This document shows positions 20,148 to 36,550 of a stretch of 64,000 nt of DNA, in pieces. The stretch lies in contig NZ_JABFAO010000016.1 of assembly GCF_017168235.1 (NCBI RefSeq), positions 190,922 through 254,921 on the forward strand. The letters run 5' to 3'. Position numbers and translations under genes: made by a program. The notes beneath the pieces are model-generated. The model saw only the letters and a program-made list of their open reading frames with translations. It did not search any database and was not told where the DNA came from. Position 1 is the first letter of the stretch, and every line of letters begins with the position of its first letter. This DNA comes from Rhodococcus sp. KRD197 (GTDB lineage Bacteria > Actinomycetota > Actinomycetes > Mycobacteriales > Mycobacteriaceae).

Positions 20148-21827
20148 TCAGCTATTGCGTGCGGGACCGTCGAAACCGTCGTACGAACGCTGGTCGGTGC
20201 GGCTACGGAATCCGCCCGATCGAGTGTCGTCGCCCTGGTAGCCGCTGGTGCGGGGACGGTCACCTTGGTAGCCGCCGGTGCGGGGACGGTCACCTTGGTA
20301 GCCGCCGGTGCGGGGACGGTCACCTTGGTAGCCGCTGGTGCGGGGACGGTCACCTTGGTAGCCGCCGGTGCGGGGACGGTCGCCCTGGTAGCCGCCGGTG
20401 CGGGGACGGTCACCTTGGTAGCCGCCGGTGCGGGGACGGTCACCTTGGTAGCCGCCGGTGCGGGGACGGTCGCCCTGGTAGCCGCCGGTGCGGGGACGGT
20501 CGCCCTGGTAGCCGCCGGTGCGGGGACGGCTGTCGCGGCGGTCACGCGGGCTGGAGTTCTCTGCACGCAGTGCCTCGCCGGTCGGCTTCTTCGCGCCCGT
20601 GATGGAAGACAGTTCGGTCGAACCTGGCGAGACATTCACCGAGGTCGCTTTGACTCCGGCCATTCCCGTCAACTTCTGAACCTGTCGACGCTGATTCGGC
20701 AGGACGATCGCAACGACAGTGCCCTTTTCGCCGGCGCGTGCCGTACGGCCGGCACGGTGGAGGTAGTCCTTGTGGTCTGCAGGCGGGTCCACGTGCACGA
20801 CGAGATCGATCCCGTCGACGTGGATTCCGCGTGCGGCCACATCGGTAGCCACCAGAACCGGGGTTCGGCCATTCTTGAATCGATCGAGCACGCGGGTGCG
20901 CTGGTTCTGGGCCTTGCCGCCGTGGAGCGACTCAGCGGCGATGCCGAGTGCGCGAAGACGGTCGGTGATGCCGTCGCAGCCGAGCTTGGTGCGCGCGAAC
21001 ATGATCGTGCGACCCTCGCGTGCCCCGATCTCGGACAGCACGATGTCCTTCTGGCCCCGGTCGACCATGAGCATGTAGTGGTCCATGGTCCGGACACTGG
21101 CCTTGCCGTCCTGCGTCGAGTGTTCGACATGGTCGGGCAGGAACTGGCGAACGATGGACTGTACTTCGCGATCGAGAGTGGCGGAGAACAGCATTCGCTG
21201 TCCATCTGCCGGAGTGTCGGAGAGTACGGCGCGGACCTCGGGGAGGAATCCCATGTCGGCCATCTGGTCGGCTTCGTCCAGCGCTGTGATCTCGATGGAA
21301 TCGAGCACGCAAGTACCTTGCCGCAGATGGTCGGCGAGGCGACCCGGAGTTGCGACCAGAACGTCGACGCCGCGACGCAGTTGCTCGACCTGCTTGTTGA
21401 ATGGGGTGCCGCCGACTGCGGCGCGCACCGTCAAGCCCTGGGCACCGGCGTACGGTGCCATCGACTCGACAACCTGGAAGGCCAGTTCACGGGTAGGGAC
21501 GAGCACGAGTGCGCGCGGCCGCTTCGCGGATGGGCGGTCGGTATGCAGTGCGAGACGGGCAAGGATGGGCAGACCGAAGGCCAGCGTCTTGCCCGAGCCG
21601 GTTTGCGCGCGGCCGAGCACGTTCTTGCCGGCGATCGCGTCCGGTAGAGCCTTCGCCTGGATGGGCGAGGGGATGGTGATGGAGTTTCGTGCGAGCGCCG
21701 CGACTACGGGCTCGGGAAGTCCGAGTTGGGCGAAGGTGATGACGTCGGCCGCGACAGACGAATCAGCGCCTGGAACCTCGGGTGTAGCAGAAACGTCGGG
21801 TGTACTAGTCAAGACAGCGTGAGTCAC
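20148..21827 (-). CDS. DEAD-box RNA helicase with 11-unit [10 protein letters not shown] repeat tail
   Basis: A 559-residue helicase. The core carries [31 protein letters not shown] (DEAD), SATL and [13 protein letters not shown]. After about residue 420 comes a linker and then a C-terminal tail of 11 near-identical ten-residue units [10 protein letters not shown], two or three with SGY. Such Arg/Gly/Tyr-rich tails bind RNA without sequence specificity and can drive condensate formation. The GTG at 21827 is preceded by GAGAGG. An upstream in-frame extension (to 21902) lacks helicase-like sequence. Probably cold-shock or ribosome-biogenesis related (DeaD/RhlE-like). Confidence 0.93.
20231..20529. 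repeat. 30-bp tandem repeat array inside the helicase gene
   Basis: The 30-bp unit beginning CGGGGACGGTCACCTTGGTA starts at 20251 and recurs every 30 bases to 20521, with a partial unit before it. Copies differ mainly at CACCTT/CGCCCT and CCGCCG/CCGCTG, so homogenisation is recent. The unit is a multiple of three, so copy-number change keeps the reading frame. Confidence 0.97.
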
Positions 21828-22096
21828 GCAGTTGAACCTCTCCGGATTGCGGGCACGCCACAGAGCAACAGCTGTACAGAAACACCCGCGAGAGGGGCAC
21901 AAAAACAGCTACAACACATTCATGACGAGCCAGGGCACTGTCACCTGGCCATCCATGCGCTTTCTCATATGCGCAAAGTGGGGCTGTTTGTGCCTTCGAT
22001 TTACTAGGCCGCAATGGCGACCGTGTTCGAGTGTACGCGACCGGTGTTCGATTCACCGACTCGAACGGATGTGAGGTAGCCGACTCTTTTCGACAC
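21828..22096. other. Helicase upstream region, no gene seen
   Basis: This stretch of about 270 bp between the M56 gene stop and the helicase start holds the helicase promoter and leader. It is less GC-rich than its surroundings. An inverted TGCGC/GCGCA pair near 21957-21978 is visible. No convincing ORF, tRNA or named regulatory element was recognised. Confidence 0.5.
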
Positions 22097-23083: not shown

Positions 23084-23500
23084 TCAATCGGACTTTCCGT
23101 CTGCGACGAGAGCGTGGGAGGGCTCGTCCGATTGTGCCACTTCCAAGGCAGCGAGTGCTTCGCGGAGGGCGGCTGCTTCATCGGCGCCGACTCTGCCGAC
23201 GAAGTGCACCAGGGCAGCGGCGCGTCCACCGGACTCGGGGGCCTGCGCCAGGGCGTCGACCATGAGGCTGGCAACCAGCTCGTCTCGACCGTGCAGGGGG
23301 ACGTAGCGATGAGCTCTGTCGTCCCGCTGCTGCACGACAAGTTGTTTCTTGGCCAGACGCTGTAGCACCGTCATCACTGTCGTATACGCGAGCTCACGGT
23401 GGGCGGAGAGCGCCTCGTGCACCTGCCGCACGGTCTGGGGCTCCGAAGAATCCCAGAGATGATCCATCACTGCGCGCTCGAGTTCCCCTAGACCAGCCAT
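23084..23500 (-). CDS. blaI: BlaI/MecI/CopY family transcriptional repressor
   Basis: A 138-residue winged-helix repressor: MAGLGELERAVMDHLWDSSEP, then TVRQVHEALSAHRELAYTTVMTVLQRLAKKQLV, the recognition part, with a C-terminal dimerisation helix. It matches M. tuberculosis Rv1846c, which controls its own operon and, in reports, ATP synthase genes and bla. The ATG at 23500 is 35 bp from a 19-bp inverted repeat that should be its operator. It is the first gene of the pair with the M56 peptidase. Confidence 0.93.
   Translation of the reverse strand: MAGLGELERAVMDHLWDSSEPQTVRQVHEALSAHRELAYTTVMTVLQRLAKKQLVVQQRDDRAHRYVPLHGRDELVASLMVDALAQAPESGGRAAALVHFVGRVGADEAAALREALAALEVAQSDEPSHALVADGKSD

Positions 23501-27633: not shown

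Positions 27634-27637
<4 letters not shown>
24980..27637 (+). CDS. Aminoacyl-phosphatidylglycerol synthase-like protein (rhomboid-like membrane part + DUF2156)
   Basis: An 885-residue protein. Residues 40-230 are a six-helix region with a rhomboid-like look (FEHLRIWTVVTSGLL and APIERRIGSRKF) but without clear Ser/His catalytic residues. More membrane segments follow to about residue 540. The C-terminal 330 residues are the DUF2156 domain of MprF/LysX-type tRNA-dependent lipid aminoacylases (TGDPVGP, RTALNRAKKAG, WTLDFMRRR, YGFRSLLAFKAKFQPRYEP). Such enzymes move an amino acid from aminoacyl-tRNA to phosphatidylglycerol or diacylglycerol and reduce sensitivity to cationic antimicrobials. The donor amino acid, alanine by analogy with Corynebacterium, is not proven. 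Confidence 0.87.
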
Positions 27638-28487
<850 letters not shown>

Positions 28488-28491
<4 letters not shown>

Positions 28492-29594
28492 GCGGAAACC
28501 TTTCGGTTACTACGGACGAGCAGATAGAGGAGAAAGGGTCCGCCGAGCGCGGACGTGACGATGCCGACCGGCAATTCGACGGGCAGCACTGTCCGCGCGA
28601 TCAGGTCGCTGCCCACGACAAGCAGCCCGCCCATGAGTGCGGACGCGAATATCGGGGGTCCCGGAGTTCGAAGGATGCGAAGGGCAATCTGAGGTGCAGC
28701 GAGCGCGACGAAGCCGATGGGGCCGGCGGCCGCGGTCGCGATCGCCGCGAGCGCGACCGCGGCCAACAGCAGCGATGCTTGTCCATGTTGTAGGCGCACA
28801 CCGAGTGATCGCGCGTTGTCATCGCCCAACCGAAGCGCGCCGAGGGTGAACGTGGACACGAGCGCGAAGCCACCGACGGTGACGATCGCGACCAGCACGG
28901 GCCACACCGTCGACCAGTCTGCGCCGTTCAGTGATCCGTTGAGCCACAGTTGCGCGCGCGAGACGTCGTTGATCTCCGCACTGATGAGCAGCCATCCGAT
29001 CGCCGCGGTGAGCATCGCGTTGATGGCGATACCGACGAGAATCAGTCGAAATCCCTCGACCCCGCGTTTCCAGGCGAGCGCGTAGATGATCATTGCGGTG
29101 GCTACACCGCCGATGAGAGCGGCGAGGGGGAGTCCGAGAGTGGCGAGCAGACCGACGAAGGTACCGCCGCCGCCGAGCACGATCAGCGCGACTGCCGCTG
29201 CGCTGGCACCTGCCGTGATGCCGAGGATGTCGGGACTCGCGAGTGAGTTGCGTGCGATGGACTGCGTCACCGCCCCGGACATACCGAGTGCCACTCCGAC
29301 GAGAATTCCGGTCAACGACCGGGGTAGACGAAGGTCGATGACGATGAATCGATCGATACGCGAACCTCCACCCAGTAGGACATCGATCACTTGCGGAATG
29401 GACAGCGGGAAGTCGCCGCGGCCGATGTTGATGCAGAACACCAGGAAGAGCGCGGTGAGCATGGCGAGGGTCAGCAACACCATGATCGGTCGCCTGACCA
29501 ACGAGACCGGACCTACGCGGAACGCCGGTCGCGAAGGCACACGGCGACTCGGAGCGTCGACGGGTGCTGAAACAGGTTCTGCTTCGGTGGTCAC
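28488..29594 (-). CDS. FecCD family iron-siderophore permease
   Basis: A 368-residue permease with about nine or ten membrane helices. Family landmarks are DLRLPRSLTGILVGVALGMSG near residue 90 and NSLASPDILGITAGA, and the C-terminal LIARTVLPVELPVGIVTSALGGPFLLYLL. It forms the heterodimeric channel with the RDD-FecCD protein encoded just upstream. GTG start overlapping the preceding stop as GTGA. No siderophore-binding lipoprotein gene is in the operon, so a binding protein must come from elsewhere. Confidence 0.94.
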
Positions 29595-31102
29595 AGGCTT
29601 GCCAGCTTTCGACGACGAACCAAAGCAATGAAGAACGGAGCACCGAACAGTGCAAGGACGATGCCGACCTGCAACTCGCCTGGCCGGACCACGACGCGGC
29701 CGATGACATCAGCGACCAGGAGCATCACCCCGCCCATCAGGCCCGCGTACGGAACCAGCCAGCGATAGTCGGGTCCGGTCACCACACGGGCGATGTGCGG
29801 CACGACGAGGCCGATGAACGCGATGGGGCCGCAGGCGGCGGTGGCTGCGCCGGTGAGCAATGTGATGGCGACGATGCCGACCGTGCGCGTGAGTGCGATG
29901 TTGGTGCCGAGGGAGCGGGCGACGTCGTCACCGAGACTCATGACGTTCAGGCCCGGGGTGCTCGCCAACGCAATGAGGACGCCGATCACGAGAAACGGCA
30001 GCACCTGCCACAGCACGTCGAGGCCGCGGCCCGCGACCGACCCGACGGACCAGAATCGGTACCCGTCGAGGCTCGTCTGATCGAGAATGACGATGGCGTT
30101 GGTCATCGCCGCGAGAAAGAAGGCGACGCCAGCCCCGGCCAGCGCCAGATTCAACGGGCTCGCGCGGCCGTTTCCGATCGACGAGAGCCCGAAGACGACG
30201 ACGCTGGCGAGCGCGGACCCGGCGACAGCGAACCAGAGGTACTGGCTCGGGGAGTTGAATCCGAACAGGTAGATCGAGAGAACCACGAAGAATGCTGCGC
30301 CGGCGTTGAGTCCGAGCAGCCCCGCGTCGGCGAGTGGATTGCGGGTGTGTCCTTGAATCAACGCGCCGGCAATGCCGAGTGCGATGCCCACTACGAGAGC
30401 GAGCAGCGTCCGTGGAACGCGGAGGGTCCGCACGATGATGTCGGTGTCGGTGCCCGTGCTGGACAACAGCGCGTGACCGATTTCGTCGAAGGTCAGAGGT
30501 CGGGCGCCTATTGCGATACTGGCCAGGATCGCTGCCGCCAGTGCGACGGCCAGCACGATGAGACCGAGTATGCGGCGTCTGCGGATGCCCGCCACCGACG
30601 TGTCCTGGGGAACCTGTTCGAACAGTTCGTCGATGGCAGTTTTCTCGTGGACTACTTCGCTGGTTCCCCGGCCGATTCCCATTCTGCGGAGCGCAGCGCG
30701 CTTCGCTCCGATCGCGTCGCCGGTCACGCTGTCCCGGACGATGAGCGAGGCCCATCGTTTGCCGGTGCTCTGTCCTTCCCGGCCCTCACGGAAGCCCACG
30801 TTCCAGATGGCCACACCTGCAGTCACCGCCAGCGCGATACTGCCGAACACGAAGCGATCGGCTTGGCCGCCACCGTTGGCCTCGCGCAGGGAGTCGACCA
30901 CGGACCACCCGATGGCGAGAGGTATCAGAACGATCGCAAGGTCGACGATCGCTGCCCATGCTCGAGGTGTCCACCGCGCCGGACCACGAGGGATGTCCTC
31001 GGTGGCGAACGCGTCGTCGGAATCGAGGCGCGGGCCCACCGACAGCGCGGTGAGATCCGGAACCGACGAGGTGACCGGGTCGGCAGATGGTGTCGTCGTC
31101 AC
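29591..31102 (-). CDS. RDD domain fused to a FecCD iron-siderophore permease
   Basis: A 503-residue fusion, about 150 residues longer than normal FecCD permeases. Residues 40-145 form an RDD domain: ARWTPRAWAAIVDLAIV, a second helix, and REGREGQSTGKRWASLIVRD followed by GAKRAALRR. After a polar linker with FEQVPQDTSVAG the FecCD permease begins near residue 175, with TLRVPRTLLALVVGIALGIAG, QGHTRNPLADAGLLGLNAGA and the C-terminal GRVVVRPGELQVGIVLALFGAPFF. First gene of the leftward operon, GTG start with GAGGAG upstream. RDD modules are known in other ion or solute transport contexts; its job here is unknown. Confidence 0.88.
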   Translation of the reverse strand: MTTTPSADPVTSSVPDLTALSVGPRLDSDDAFATEDIPRGPARWTPRAWAAIVDLAIVLIPLAIGWSVVDSLREANGGGQADRFVFGSIALAVTAGVAIWNVGFREGREGQSTGKRWASLIVRDSVTGDAIGAKRAALRRMGIGRGTSEVVHEKTAIDELFEQVPQDTSVAGIRRRRILGLIVLAVALAAAILASIAIGARPLTFDEIGHALLSSTGTDTDIIVRTLRVPRTLLALVVGIALGIAGALIQGHTRNPLADAGLLGLNAGAAFFVVLSIYLFGFNSPSQYLWFAVAGSALASVVVFGLSSIGNGRASPLNLALAGAGVAFFLAAMTNAIVILDQTSLDGYRFWSVGSVAGRGLDVLWQVLPFLVIGVLIALASTPGLNVMSLGDDVARSLGTNIALTRTVGIVAITLLTGAATAACGPIAFIGLVVPHIARVVTGPDYRWLVPYAGLMGGVMLLVADVIGRVVVRPGELQVGIVLALFGAPFFIALVRRRKLASL

Positions 31103-31138: not shown

Positions 31139-31157
31139 TTAGGTTACGGAACCCTTG
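31139..31157. promoter_or_regulatory. Weaker IdeR/DtxR-type iron box upstream of the fec operon
   Basis: TTAGGTTACGGAACCCTTG matches the iron-box consensus TWAGGTWAGSCTWACCTWA at 14 of 19 positions by eye. It lies 37 bp before the start of the RDD-FecCD gene, where bound Fe-IdeR would block transcription of the importer operon. Confidence 0.5.
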
Positions 31158-31229
31158 TTCGTAGTGTGCGCTCAGGTAAGGGAAGGCATGCCGTATAGCG
31201 GCTACCCGAGTCCCACACCCCCGCCTACT

Positions 31230-31248
31230 AATGGTTAGGCTAACCTAC
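31230..31248. promoter_or_regulatory. IdeR/DtxR-type iron box upstream of the FhuF-like gene
   Basis: AATGGTTAGGCTAACCTAC contains the uninterrupted core GGTTAGGCTAACCT and matches TWAGGTWAGSCTWACCTWA at 16 of 19 positions. It sits 24 bp before the FhuF-like start and between two divergent iron genes. Confidence 0.85.
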
Positions 31249-31271
31249 ATCGAACGAACCGAAGGTTCATG

Positions 31272-32093
31272 ATGTCGACTCGAGGGAGTGTTCCGGTGTC
31301 CGTAGCAACCACGACTCACGATGCTGTGTCCACGACACGCGATGCTTGGGCCGATGTACGTCGTGCAACCGAACGAGGCGGCCAGGGCGGCCCATTGATG
31401 CGCGCAAGCGCGCGACTGCGCTCACTCAATCCCGACTATCCGCGGATGTACGCGGTGGCGACGATGGCGAACGAGAGCAAGCGGCGGTGGTGGCAGCTCG
31501 CGGCCGGGCTGGACGACGGCCGCGTGGAGCAGATGGTTGCTCGGTCGATGGAGGATCTCGAAGAACCCGAGTCTGCGGCGATCCAGGTTGCGACAGCCCT
31601 GGTGCACGCCGTGGTCGGTCGCGTGTCCGCCATGCTGGTGCTGGAGGGCCGCGCCTGGGACCCCGGCATCGACAACCTGTGGATTCATATGGACAGCGAT
31701 GGGTGCATCGACTGGGCCGGCGTCACTTCGCCCGTACTGAGGGTGCTACCAGGCGACGCCCTGGCGGATGAGCCGGGTGCGGTGACGCTACCGTGCGAGC
31801 AGGCACTCCTGGTGTGGACGGCTCATCGGTGCATCACCTCCCTCGAGGCGGTGCTGCGCTCGTTCGCGAGCCGGTCACCCATCGATGCTCGCGTCTTCTG
31901 GAGCCTGGTGGGGGATTCGGTGCTGGGCGCCTCCACTCTCGTTCCAGTACTGGCCGGGACCTATGCGTCGGAGAGTGCGCGGAGGGGTCAGGCGCTACTG
32001 GACGCATTCGTCGCGGCGGGCGCCCCCGTCCGAAACCGCCCCGTGCGAAATCGAACCGTGCCGATCGGCCGAATACGAGCGCGTGCATCGTAG
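31272..32093 (+). CDS. FhuF-like iron-utilisation protein
   Basis: A 273-residue soluble protein, divergent from the siderophore importer and under an iron box. The region ALVHAVVGRVSAMLVLEGRAWDP, then NLWIHMDSDGCIDWAG and VFWSLVGDSVLGAST, recalls FhuF/IucA-C-type ferric reductase or iron-utilisation proteins. The usual C-terminal cysteine cluster of FhuF for a 2Fe-2S centre is absent, so it may not be a reductase. GAAGG lies upstream with tandem ATG codons at 31269 and 31272; the second gives better spacing. Iron linkage is well supported by context, biochemical role is not. Confidence 0.55.
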   Translation: MSTRGSVPVSVATTTHDAVSTTRDAWADVRRATERGGQGGPLMRASARLRSLNPDYPRMYAVATMANESKRRWWQLAAGLDDGRVEQMVARSMEDLEEPESAAIQVATALVHAVVGRVSAMLVLEGRAWDPGIDNLWIHMDSDGCIDWAGVTSPVLRVLPGDALADEPGAVTLPCEQALLVWTAHRCITSLEAVLRSFASRSPIDARVFWSLVGDSVLGASTLVPVLAGTYASESARRGQALLDAFVAAGAPVRNRPVRNRTVPIGRIRARAS

Positions 32094-32096
32094 GGA

Positions 32097-32126
32097 TTGC
32101 TTAATGAGGTAAGCCTTGCCTATAGT
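32097..32126 (+). promoter_or_regulatory. Promoter of the small RNA with overlapping IdeR box
   Basis: TTGCTT (32097-32102) and TATAGT (32121-32126) are 18 bp apart. The iron box TGAGGTAAGCCTTGCCTAT (32105-32123) fills the spacer and overlaps the -10, matching TWAGGTWAGSCTWACCTWA at 16 of 19 positions. This is the classic layout for repression by iron-loaded IdeR. The promoter starts four bases after the FhuF-like stop codon. Confidence 0.8.
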
Positions 32127-32132
32127 TGAGTC

Positions 32133-32233
32133 GTTACACACGAACGGACCGTGCCGGAGTCCTGAGGGCTGCAGAGACTCCCGGTCCTTGCGCGGCGGGC
32201 CTCACATTCACCGAATGTGAGGCCCGCCGATTT
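32133..32233 (+). ncRNA. Iron-regulated small RNA, candidate MrsI (ncRv11846) counterpart
   Basis: About 100 nt between an iron-box promoter and a very strong terminator, with no credible ORF. The transcript should fold into two parts. The first is a 12-bp stem, GGACCG (32146-32151) and GGAGTC (32156-32161) pairing with GACTCC and CGGTCC (32176-32187), with a 4-base bulge and a 14-base loop CTGAGGGCTGCAGA. The second is the terminator stem. M. tuberculosis encodes the iron-sparing sRNA MrsI between blaI (Rv1846c) and the thioesterase Rv1847; here the element lies directly before the equivalent thioesterase gene. Homology rests on position, iron box and size, since no alignment was run. Start and end are estimates. 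Confidence 0.75.
32194..32233 (+). terminator. Intrinsic terminator of the small RNA
   Basis: A 16-bp perfect stem, GGCGGGCCTCACATTC (32194-32209) and its complement (32213-32228), closes a three-base ACC loop and is followed by GATTTTCC. It also ends any read-through from the FhuF-like gene. Confidence 0.93.
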
Positions 32234-32322
32234 TCCTGCATCCACGGTCGTGTAGTTCTGATTCGGCGGCGGTGATCGATCGTCGTTGCCGGAATGCACA
32301 CTGGTGCGAGCGAGGAGAACCT

Positions 32323-32790
32323 GTGAGCGGGACTGAACACGAAACAGCGAATGGTGCGCCGAACCTCGGCGATATAGACCCAGCGCAGATGACCGAGCTG
32401 TGCGGTCGAGGCTTCGACGGGGCAGTCGGCCTCGAGTACACCGACATCTCCGCCGACCATGTTCGCGCCACATGGGAGGTCACCCCAGCATTGCATCAAC
32501 CGGCCGGCATCATGCACGGCGGAGTGCTGTGCTCGGTGGTGGAGTCGCTCGCAAGTATCGGTGCGAGCGTCTGGCTGGGTGAGCGCGGGCACGTGGTCGG
32601 CGTGAACAACAACACGGACTTCCTCCGCGCATCTCGTCAGGGACGCCTCGTTGCCGAAGCGCGGCCGATACATCGAGGTCGAACACAGCAGATCTGGCAG
32701 GTCGACATCACCAACGAAGCCGGCAAGCACGTCGCACAGGGCAAGGTACGTCTGGCGAACATCGTCGATACCGAAAGTCTGGGACAGTAG
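32323..32790 (+). CDS. PaaI family hotdog thioesterase (Rv1847-like)
   Basis: A 155-residue single hotdog-fold enzyme. The family signature HQPAGIMHGGVLCSVVESLAS covers the catalytic-helix region, followed by VGVNNNTDFLRASRQGRL. Such proteins hydrolyse aromatic or fatty acyl-CoA thioesters; substrate not predictable. The GTG at 32323 has GAGGAG five bases upstream. It follows the small RNA and precedes the aldolase gene by five bases. In M. tuberculosis Rv1847 sits in front of ureA, so this is the conserved neighbour of the urease operon. Confidence 0.88.
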   Translation: MSGTEHETANGAPNLGDIDPAQMTELCGRGFDGAVGLEYTDISADHVRATWEVTPALHQPAGIMHGGVLCSVVESLASIGASVWLGERGHVVGVNNNTDFLRASRQGRLVAEARPIHRGRTQQIWQVDITNEAGKHVAQGKVRLANIVDTESLGQ

Positions 32791-34829: not shown

Positions 34830-36550
34830 TGGTGCACATGAGCCGGTCCCGCTACGCACAGCTGTTCGGCCCGACCACCGGTGATCGGATTCGCTTGGCC
34901 GACACCGATCTGCTGATAGAGGTCACCGAGGACCGCTGCGGTGGACCTGGGCTCGCCGGCGAGGAGGCCGTATTCGGCGGTGGCAAAGTCATTCGTGAAT
35001 CGATGGGACAGTCACGTGCCACCCGAGCCGACGGAGCCCCCGATACCGTCATCACCGGAGCTGTGATCGTCGACCACTGGGGGATCATCAAGGCAGACAT
35101 CGGCATTCGAGACGGCCGAATAGTTGCACTCGGCAAGGCCGGGAACCCGGACACGATGTCCGGTGTGCACCCCGATCTCGTGATCGGCCCGTCGACCGAG
35201 ATCATCGCCGGCAACGGAAAGATCGTCACCGCCGGTGCAATCGACTGCCACGTTCACTTCATCTGCCCCCAAATCATGGACGAGGCCCTCGCCGGCGGCA
35301 TCACGACGGTGGTCGGCGGTGGGACCGGGCCGGCGGAAGGCAGCAAGGCAACCACGGTCACACCCGGCGCGTGGCACCTGTCTCGAATGCTCGAAGCTCT
35401 CGACCACTGGCCGATGAACATCGTGCTGTTGGGCAAGGGAAACACCGTCAGTAGCGAGGCGATGTGGGAGCAACTACGCGCAGGCGCCTCCGGGTTGAAG
35501 CTGCATGAGGACTGGGGGTCGACCCCGGCCGCCATCGATGCATGCCTGCGGGTGTGCGAGGACGCCGGAGTTCAGGCCGCGCTGCACTCGGACACTCTCA
35601 ACGAAGCAGGCTTCGTCGAAAGCACCCTCGGTGCGATCGCCGGACGCGGCATTCACGCTTACCACACCGAAGGTGCCGGAGGAGGTCACGCTCCGGACAT
35701 CATCACCGTCGCCTCGCAAGGACACATCTTGCCGAGTTCGACCAATCCCACACGGCCCCACACGATCAACACTCTCGACGAGCACCTCGACATGCTCATG
35801 GTCTGTCATCATCTGGATCCGTCGATACCCGAGGACCTCGCATTCGCGGAGAGCCGCATCCGGCCGTCGACCATCGCCGCAGAGGATCTACTGCACGACC
35901 TCGGGGCGATCTCGATGATCGGCAGCGATGCGCAGGCAATGGGCAGGATCGGCGAAGTGGTGCTGCGGACTTGGCAGACCGCGCATGTGATGAAGAAGCG
36001 GCGTGGCCTGCTCTCCGGCGATGTCGGTGCCGACAACAACCGCGTCAGGCGATACATCGCGAAATACACCATCTGCCCGGCAGTCGCCCACGGGCTCGAT
36101 CACGAGATCGGTTCGGTGGAACCGGGCAAGCTGGCGGATCTGGTCCTGTGGGATCCGGCATTCTTCGGCGTCCGGCCGCACCTGGTCGTCAAGGGCGGGA
36201 TGATCGCCTGGGCTCAGATGGGTGACGCCAACGCCTCGATTCCGACTCCACAACCAGAACTGCCCAGGCCCATGTTCGGTGCCTCCGCGAAAGCCGCCGC
36301 AGCGACCTCCGTGCATTTCGTCGCACCGCAGGCAATCGAGGACGGTCTGGCGGACCGATTGAACTGCGACCGCCGACTCGTCGCTGTGGGCAATGTTCGG
36401 GCCGTAGGCAAGTCCGATATGCCGCTCAATGACGCGCAGCCACGAATCGAGGTCGACCCGGACACGTTCACGGTGAAGATCGACGGTGAAGTATGGACGG
36501 CAGACCCGGCAACGGAACTCCCCATGGCACAGAGATACTTCCTGTTTTGA
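34829..36550 (+). CDS. ureC: Urease alpha (catalytic) subunit
   Basis: A 573-residue catalytic subunit holding the di-nickel centre. Visible are the HVH metal ligands in [11 protein letters not shown] (near residue 136), the lysine that is carbamylated to bridge the nickels in GLKLHEDWG (near 220), and the mobile-flap cysteine in [20 protein letters not shown] (near 325). The ATG at 34829 overlaps the ureAB stop; a second ATG three codons on (34838) is an alternative. Complete length, no damage. Confidence 0.97.

Follow-up and report, generated by a model that had tools for sequence, protein, structure and literature searches.

The targets of a MrsI-type regulon are bfrA, fprA and hypF. MrsI (ncRv11846) is an iron-starvation small RNA (sRNA) that reviews describe from Mycobacterium tuberculosis and M. 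smegmatis. It is placed between blaI and Rv1847, at 2096766-2096867 (PMC8628891), and is described as 100 nucleotides (nt) long, upstream of Rv1847, with an IdeR site close to where it begins and a terminator predicted at its end; its apical loop has 7 nt, 6-8 nt are given as the seed, and bfrA is a reported target (PMC11188477). Here we describe a unit in Rhodococcus sp. KRD197, within a window of 64,000 nt (contig NZ_JABFAO010000016.1, positions 190,922 to 254,921) that is the whole stretch of DNA analysed. The unit had been read from the sequence as a MrsI counterpart outside Mycobacterium, and our results support this original prediction in substance. Because the unit sits at the blaI/Rv1847 position, has an invariant loop, covarying stems and an IdeR-like box, and because CAGCCC, the complement of its loop, occurs in bfrA leaders, we consider that it is very probably MrsI. 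We put at roughly 0.87 the probability that it is an orthologue of this sRNA, made when IdeR/DtxR leaves its box and acting through pairing of its loop with mRNA leaders.

The promoter, read from the sequence, lies on the plus strand at 32097-32126 and consists of TTGCTT (32097-32102), a spacer of 18 nt and TATAGT (32121-32126). A strict sigma-70 scan of 500 nt left it unscored (0 found). Over the -10 element lies a DtxR/IdeR-like box at 32105-32123, which scores 14/19 on the minus strand and 13/19 on the plus strand against a 19-nt DtxR/IdeR consensus; the original prediction had located both elements correctly. Sites of at least 14/19 occur twice in the window, at this box, which is the second best, and at 31230. 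The sRNA gene, of about 100 nt, would span 32132-32237 on the plus strand, with its 5' end set from the -10 and its extent supported by folding, matches elsewhere and a covariance model (R1, defined below) that aligned to 32145-32237 with 100.9 bits, the window sequence itself (L033) being part of R1. The 106 nt fold at -60.5 kcal/mol (z = -6.9 against dinucleotide shuffles), a value to which the terminator contributes much.

Folding gave a conserved hairpin of 15 pairs at 32145-32187 on the plus strand (GGACCG...GGAGUC, CUG-loop-CAG, GACUCC, CGGUCC). An open loop of 14 bases had been expected; what folds is an apical loop of 7 nt, AGGGCUG (32165-32171, plus strand), closed by CUG:CAG, which we propose as the seed on account of its conservation and of the CAGCCC complement ahead of bfrA. 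The intrinsic terminator that follows on the same strand (32193-32235) has a stem of 17 bp (32193-32229), a loop of 3 nt and a short T run in ATTTTCC. Scanning 500 nt returned 2 terminator-like sites, against a shuffle average of 0.1; the predicted terminator is present, with a stem of 17 bp where 16 had been given. The terminator-ended RNA would be about 100 nt long, a length that is a prediction only. No match to the unit attained the gathering score of an Rfam family, and a known family was rejected as a candidate: there were only sub-threshold matches, of microRNA type on the terminator or to weak unrelated families.

The surroundings of the unit correspond to those of MrsI. An Rv1846c-like BlaI repressor domain, which corresponds to the second flank of the locus in mycobacteria, is encoded on the minus strand at 23084-23485 (Pfam Penicillinase_R; PDB 2g9w, E 1.9e-55); then come about 8.5 kb, the sRNA unit and, directly downstream and on the unit's strand, an Rv1847-like thioesterase at 32272-32790 (Pfam 4HBT), whose likely start is the GTG at 32323 after GAGGAG. 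The arrangement is as it had been foreseen, including the 8.5 kb on the blaI side. By Pfam, this insert holds an esterase, an LPG_synthase_C (MprF-like) gene and a FecCD-type ATP-binding cassette (ABC) transporter.

We built R1 from 43 sequences of the window's genus and two other genera, none of them Mycobacterium; L030, which has an N run, and L038, which has a broken terminator, were left out before the first alignment (A1). We then used R1 on 80 loci titled Mycobacterium, Mycolicibacterium, Mycobacteroides or Mycolicibacter, the best 80 matches listed to M. tuberculosis BlaI. Seventy-three of the 80 carry an R1 match beside blaI on the divergent strand (E 4e-5 or better), and 69 of these 73 have a thioesterase downstream, on that strand and no more than 600 nt away. 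Of the remaining four, L223 has a thioesterase with a 67-nt overlap, L224 stops too close by, and no thioesterase is seen in L178 or L231. The exact CTGAGGGCTGCAG is present in 71/73 and the 7-nt loop in 72/73. The unit is thus homologous to an RNA gene that occupies the position of MrsI in named mycobacteria and has the same core, found with a model free of Mycobacterium, which bears out the idea of a counterpart outside that genus. Among the 80 loci, M. lepromatosis gave a weak match (E 0.008), and there was no match in M. leprae, Ca. M. methanotrophicum and four Mycolicibacter loci.

Several of these loci were also read by eye. In M. leprae and M. lepromatosis (L217, L220) the sRNA appears to have decayed, with an altered loop or stem and no terminator seen, while an IdeR-like box persists in both. 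It is altered in M. uberis (L231) as well, where AGGGCTG is not kept. M. montefiorense (L206) keeps AGGGCTG with the closing triplets swapped, CAG...CTG for CTG...CAG, so that pairing would hold. The four Mycolicibacter loci (L245, L251, L254, L255) have BlaI and the thioesterase present and the R1 match absent.

For conservation and covariation we aligned 99 copies (96 distinct), at loci chosen for matching R1, without the altered L206, L220 and L231 and the non-matching L217. This alignment was fitted to the R1 structure and is hence biased toward it. In it, 95.8 per cent of cells are paired, against at most 50 per cent in slid controls. Among the 96 distinct copies, double-sided changes affect 25/32 pairs (shuffled mean 15.4; 0/500 shuffles as high), made up of 8/15 pairs in the hairpin and 17/17 in the terminator; in the unfitted A1, double changes were found in 14/32 pairs. 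Covariation of the stem in related genomes had been named in advance as a test of the prediction, and it is present. One of the three loop-closing pairs covaries (UA to CG, 3 copies) and two are invariant. The AGGGCUG loop occurs in 99/99 copies, CUGAGGGCUGCAG in 96/99, and the other three have CCGAGGGCUGCGG, with pairing kept.

This pattern of change also bears on whether the unit is a conserved IdeR-controlled transcript coding for a small protein. Two frames that open with TTG, 34 and 49 codons long, do span the region, but both begin upstream of the predicted transcript, and sense starts within it open at most 12 codons. Across the hairpins there is no sense-strand open reading frame (ORF) of at least 80 amino acids (three antisense frames cross), in agreement with the earlier view that no ORF fits. 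The copies vary at paired bases of the terminator and by gaps that leave the stems intact, and we regard a small protein as extremely improbable.

The upstream part is conserved too. Within 110 nt upstream, an IdeR-like box of 13-17/19 is found in 99/99 aligned copies, while downstream regions reach at most 11 (0/99 at 13 or more) and mononucleotide shuffles reach at least 13 in 0.9 per cent of cases. A TTG stands 17 or 18 nt ahead of the TA that ends the box in 78/99 copies; the 21/99 without one at 17-18 nt mostly have TTGC nearer the box or are shifted in register. Conservation therefore supports a role for the box in iron control and for the loop as a putative seed.

A 151-bp query from the unit matched all 37/37 genomes of the window's genus, its own included, several of them over the hairpin part only. 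The unit is therefore no accident, and these matches together with the covariation rule out a chance hairpin. In the GTDB family of the window, R1 matched 200/261 genomes (E up to 0.01) from 23/31 genera, a range wider than the original prediction assumed, with a single match in 189 of the 200; in genus g29, identified as Mycobacterium, it matched 260/297 (E up to 0.1). Most other genomes have one match, and we noted five in G343 (g29) and four and three in G226 and G234 (g27). An order-wide search gave matches in 51/298 genomes, of which 45 belong to the window's family. The six outside the family are marginal (E 5e-4 to 9e-3); none of them has AGGGCUG in the matched orientation, and they show terminator-like stems only. 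Two (L404, L405) have GGGCTG on the opposite strand.

The constancy of the downstream gene raises the possibility that the hairpins act in cis, as a leader that serves as an iron-dependent attenuator of the thioesterase/urease genes. The short distance to the thioesterase in the named mycobacteria given above would suit such a leader. Taking the best thioesterase match per genome among the matches listed, the unit also lies less than 500 nt upstream in 91/105 genomes, with a median gap of 100 nt. In the other 14/105, however, that match is found at a distance of 0.7-49 kb or on a different contig. Of six of these 14 that we re-read, four have the gene at the stated distance, and L106 and L107 have none within 1.5-2.0 kb. 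The conserved loop, with its complement ahead of bfrA, argues instead for pairing in trans, and from these distances and this complementarity we judge a cis-acting leader improbable.

To return to MrsI-like action in trans, we searched 30 genomes for BfrA, judging presence by the family cut-off, which 16/30 exceeded. CAGCCC lies within 80 nt upstream of bfrA in 10/16, the top count of all 4096 6-mers; the runner-up, CCAGCC (7), overlaps it. The ten leaders span six genera (g29, g19, g2, g10, g21, g27) and are not ten independent events, because related genomes share ancestry. In four Mycobacterium genomes the complement is 9-10 nt long, with 6-7 nt between its end and AGGAG, and in two non-Mycobacterium genera it reaches 8 nt. 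Together with the conservation of the loop, this enrichment favours the earlier suggestion of the loop as a possible seed.

Candidate targets other than bfrA gave less. The ferritin of five genomes of the window's genus is of a type other than BfrA. Across 14 ferritin loci, 5 of them from the window's genus, no conserved seed match was found at the starts; the only near-start upstream matches were GCCCTCA at -60 in L279 and AGCCCTC at -171 in L286, neither from that genus. Several TTAGG-type half-boxes were seen by eye upstream of the ferritin genes of the window's genus (L273-L276, L278). For fprA, CAGCCC stands about 40-65 nt before the start in 4/4 Mycobacterium loci. At 26 other fprA loci, where only 7-8-mers were sought, one of five such words occurred in 4 within the stretch read. 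Seven fprA-like loci of the window's genus had no conserved site; one of them, L341, had two of the five 7-8-mers, at -364 and -26 relative to the match. We give the fprA evidence little weight, and the starts examined in the window's genus did not bear out the proposal of ferritin or fprA-like mRNAs as targets. In the window's own genome, the pattern of AGCCCTC, ribosome site and RTG was matched 54 times and its reversed control 35 times, and among the ORFs at 30 of the 54 we saw no clear iron gene by eye, without a family search.

Several results weigh against a full equivalence with MrsI. CAGCCC is lacking in 6/16 bfrA leaders, two of them from g23, and BfrA exceeded the cut-off in 0/5 genomes of the window's genus, where by this measure bfrA seems not to be among the targets. 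Genus-wide, a strict pattern that joined a 9-nt site to a ribosome site and a start was matched 52 times, in 25/37 genomes, against 176 times for its reversed control. Several of the strings matched recur in two or three genomes; when we re-read seven such loci, six sites were inside an open frame of at least 484 codons, on one strand or the other, and one went with a 44-codon ORF, so that none offered a convincing leader. R1 matches are missing from 61/261 genomes of the family and 37/297 of g29, where filters lose weak ones, and two pairs of the hairpin are often open, one in 22 and the other in 36 of the 96 distinct copies. Finally, the proposed identity with MrsI is drawn from position and from mycobacteria other than M. 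tuberculosis.

Part of this would fit an orthologue by descent that has taken another role in the window's genus, with IdeR control and loop unchanged and with other mRNAs, or a protein, bound. The missing BfrA speaks for such a role, as do the ferritin starts and the strict genus-wide pattern, which yielded no conserved site even as the loop is kept in the aligned copies. On the other hand, the target search was narrow and 6-nt seeds were beyond its reach, and we see this change of role as possible but doubtful.

As an orthologue of MrsI in function as well as descent, the unit would work as an iron switch. When iron is sufficient, IdeR/DtxR with Fe2+ would occupy the box across the -10 and block transcription. 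As iron falls the repressor would come off, allowing synthesis of an RNA of about 100 nt that stops at the 17-bp terminator. Its stiff hairpin would expose AGGGCUG as a single-stranded loop, and the GGGCUG core could pair with CAGCCC in mRNA 5' leaders and lower their translation or stability.

On a wider scale, we lean slightly towards MrsI being the ancestral iron-sparing sRNA of the whole GTDB family, with loop and IdeR switch nearly frozen and a regulon that has turned over. Of the genera sampled, Mycobacterium and five more would have kept the bfrA site. The window's genus seems to have lost BfrA and may have retained the RNA for different mRNAs. M. leprae and other reduced pathogens would show the RNA in decay.

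Other features of the window were noted in passing. IdeR-like sites in 31139-31248 (15/19 at 31230 and 13/19 at 31139) sit between the divergent FecCD-type transporter operon (27634-31102, minus strand) and an ORF at 31269-32093, whose 274-amino-acid product matches nothing in Pfam at E 0.001; on inspection by eye, the L106 locus also codes for a similar protein ahead of its sRNA. At 29591-31102, a FecCD permease carries an N-terminal RDD domain, a fusion that looks unusual. The Rfam family 5_ureB_sRNA matches at 34990-35282 on the minus strand, antisense to a urease alpha-subunit-like ORF; conservation of the coding sequence is probably behind this match, not a genuine RNA. A Glycine riboswitch aptamer match lies at 1319-1416, and the ORF at 20148-21902 (minus strand) is helicase-like by eye, with a run of repeats as its C-terminus.

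What is new here is, in effect, the family-wide extension of a known sRNA, MrsI. In the portions available of the literature on MrsI with Rhodococcus or Nocardia, on IdeR and on actinobacterial iron-sparing sRNAs (including PMC10986025, PMC3388012, PMC8600241 and PMC8583896), we found no description of this RNA outside Mycobacterium; the founding paper (Gerrick 2018) was outside the search. One article names both MrsI and Nocardia (PMC12395582). A covarying family in 23/31 genera provides a covariance model where no Rfam match was found, and conservation alone points to the seed. Tests of MrsI become possible in harmless strains of Rhodococcus, and the turnover of targets around a fixed seed becomes testable.

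With MrsI as described for M. tuberculosis and M. smegmatis (PMC11188477, PMC8628891), the unit shares its place relative to blaI and Rv1847, direction, predicted length, putative IdeR site at the promoter, terminator and 7-nt apical loop. It differs in the roughly 8.5 kb between BlaI and the RNA and in the want of a BfrA above the cut-off in five genomes of its genus. Like RyhB, PrrF, FsrA and IsrR, which belong to other phyla (PMC9410917), it would be an iron-sparing sRNA controlled by an iron-responsive repressor; the repressor in this case would be DtxR/IdeR rather than Fur.
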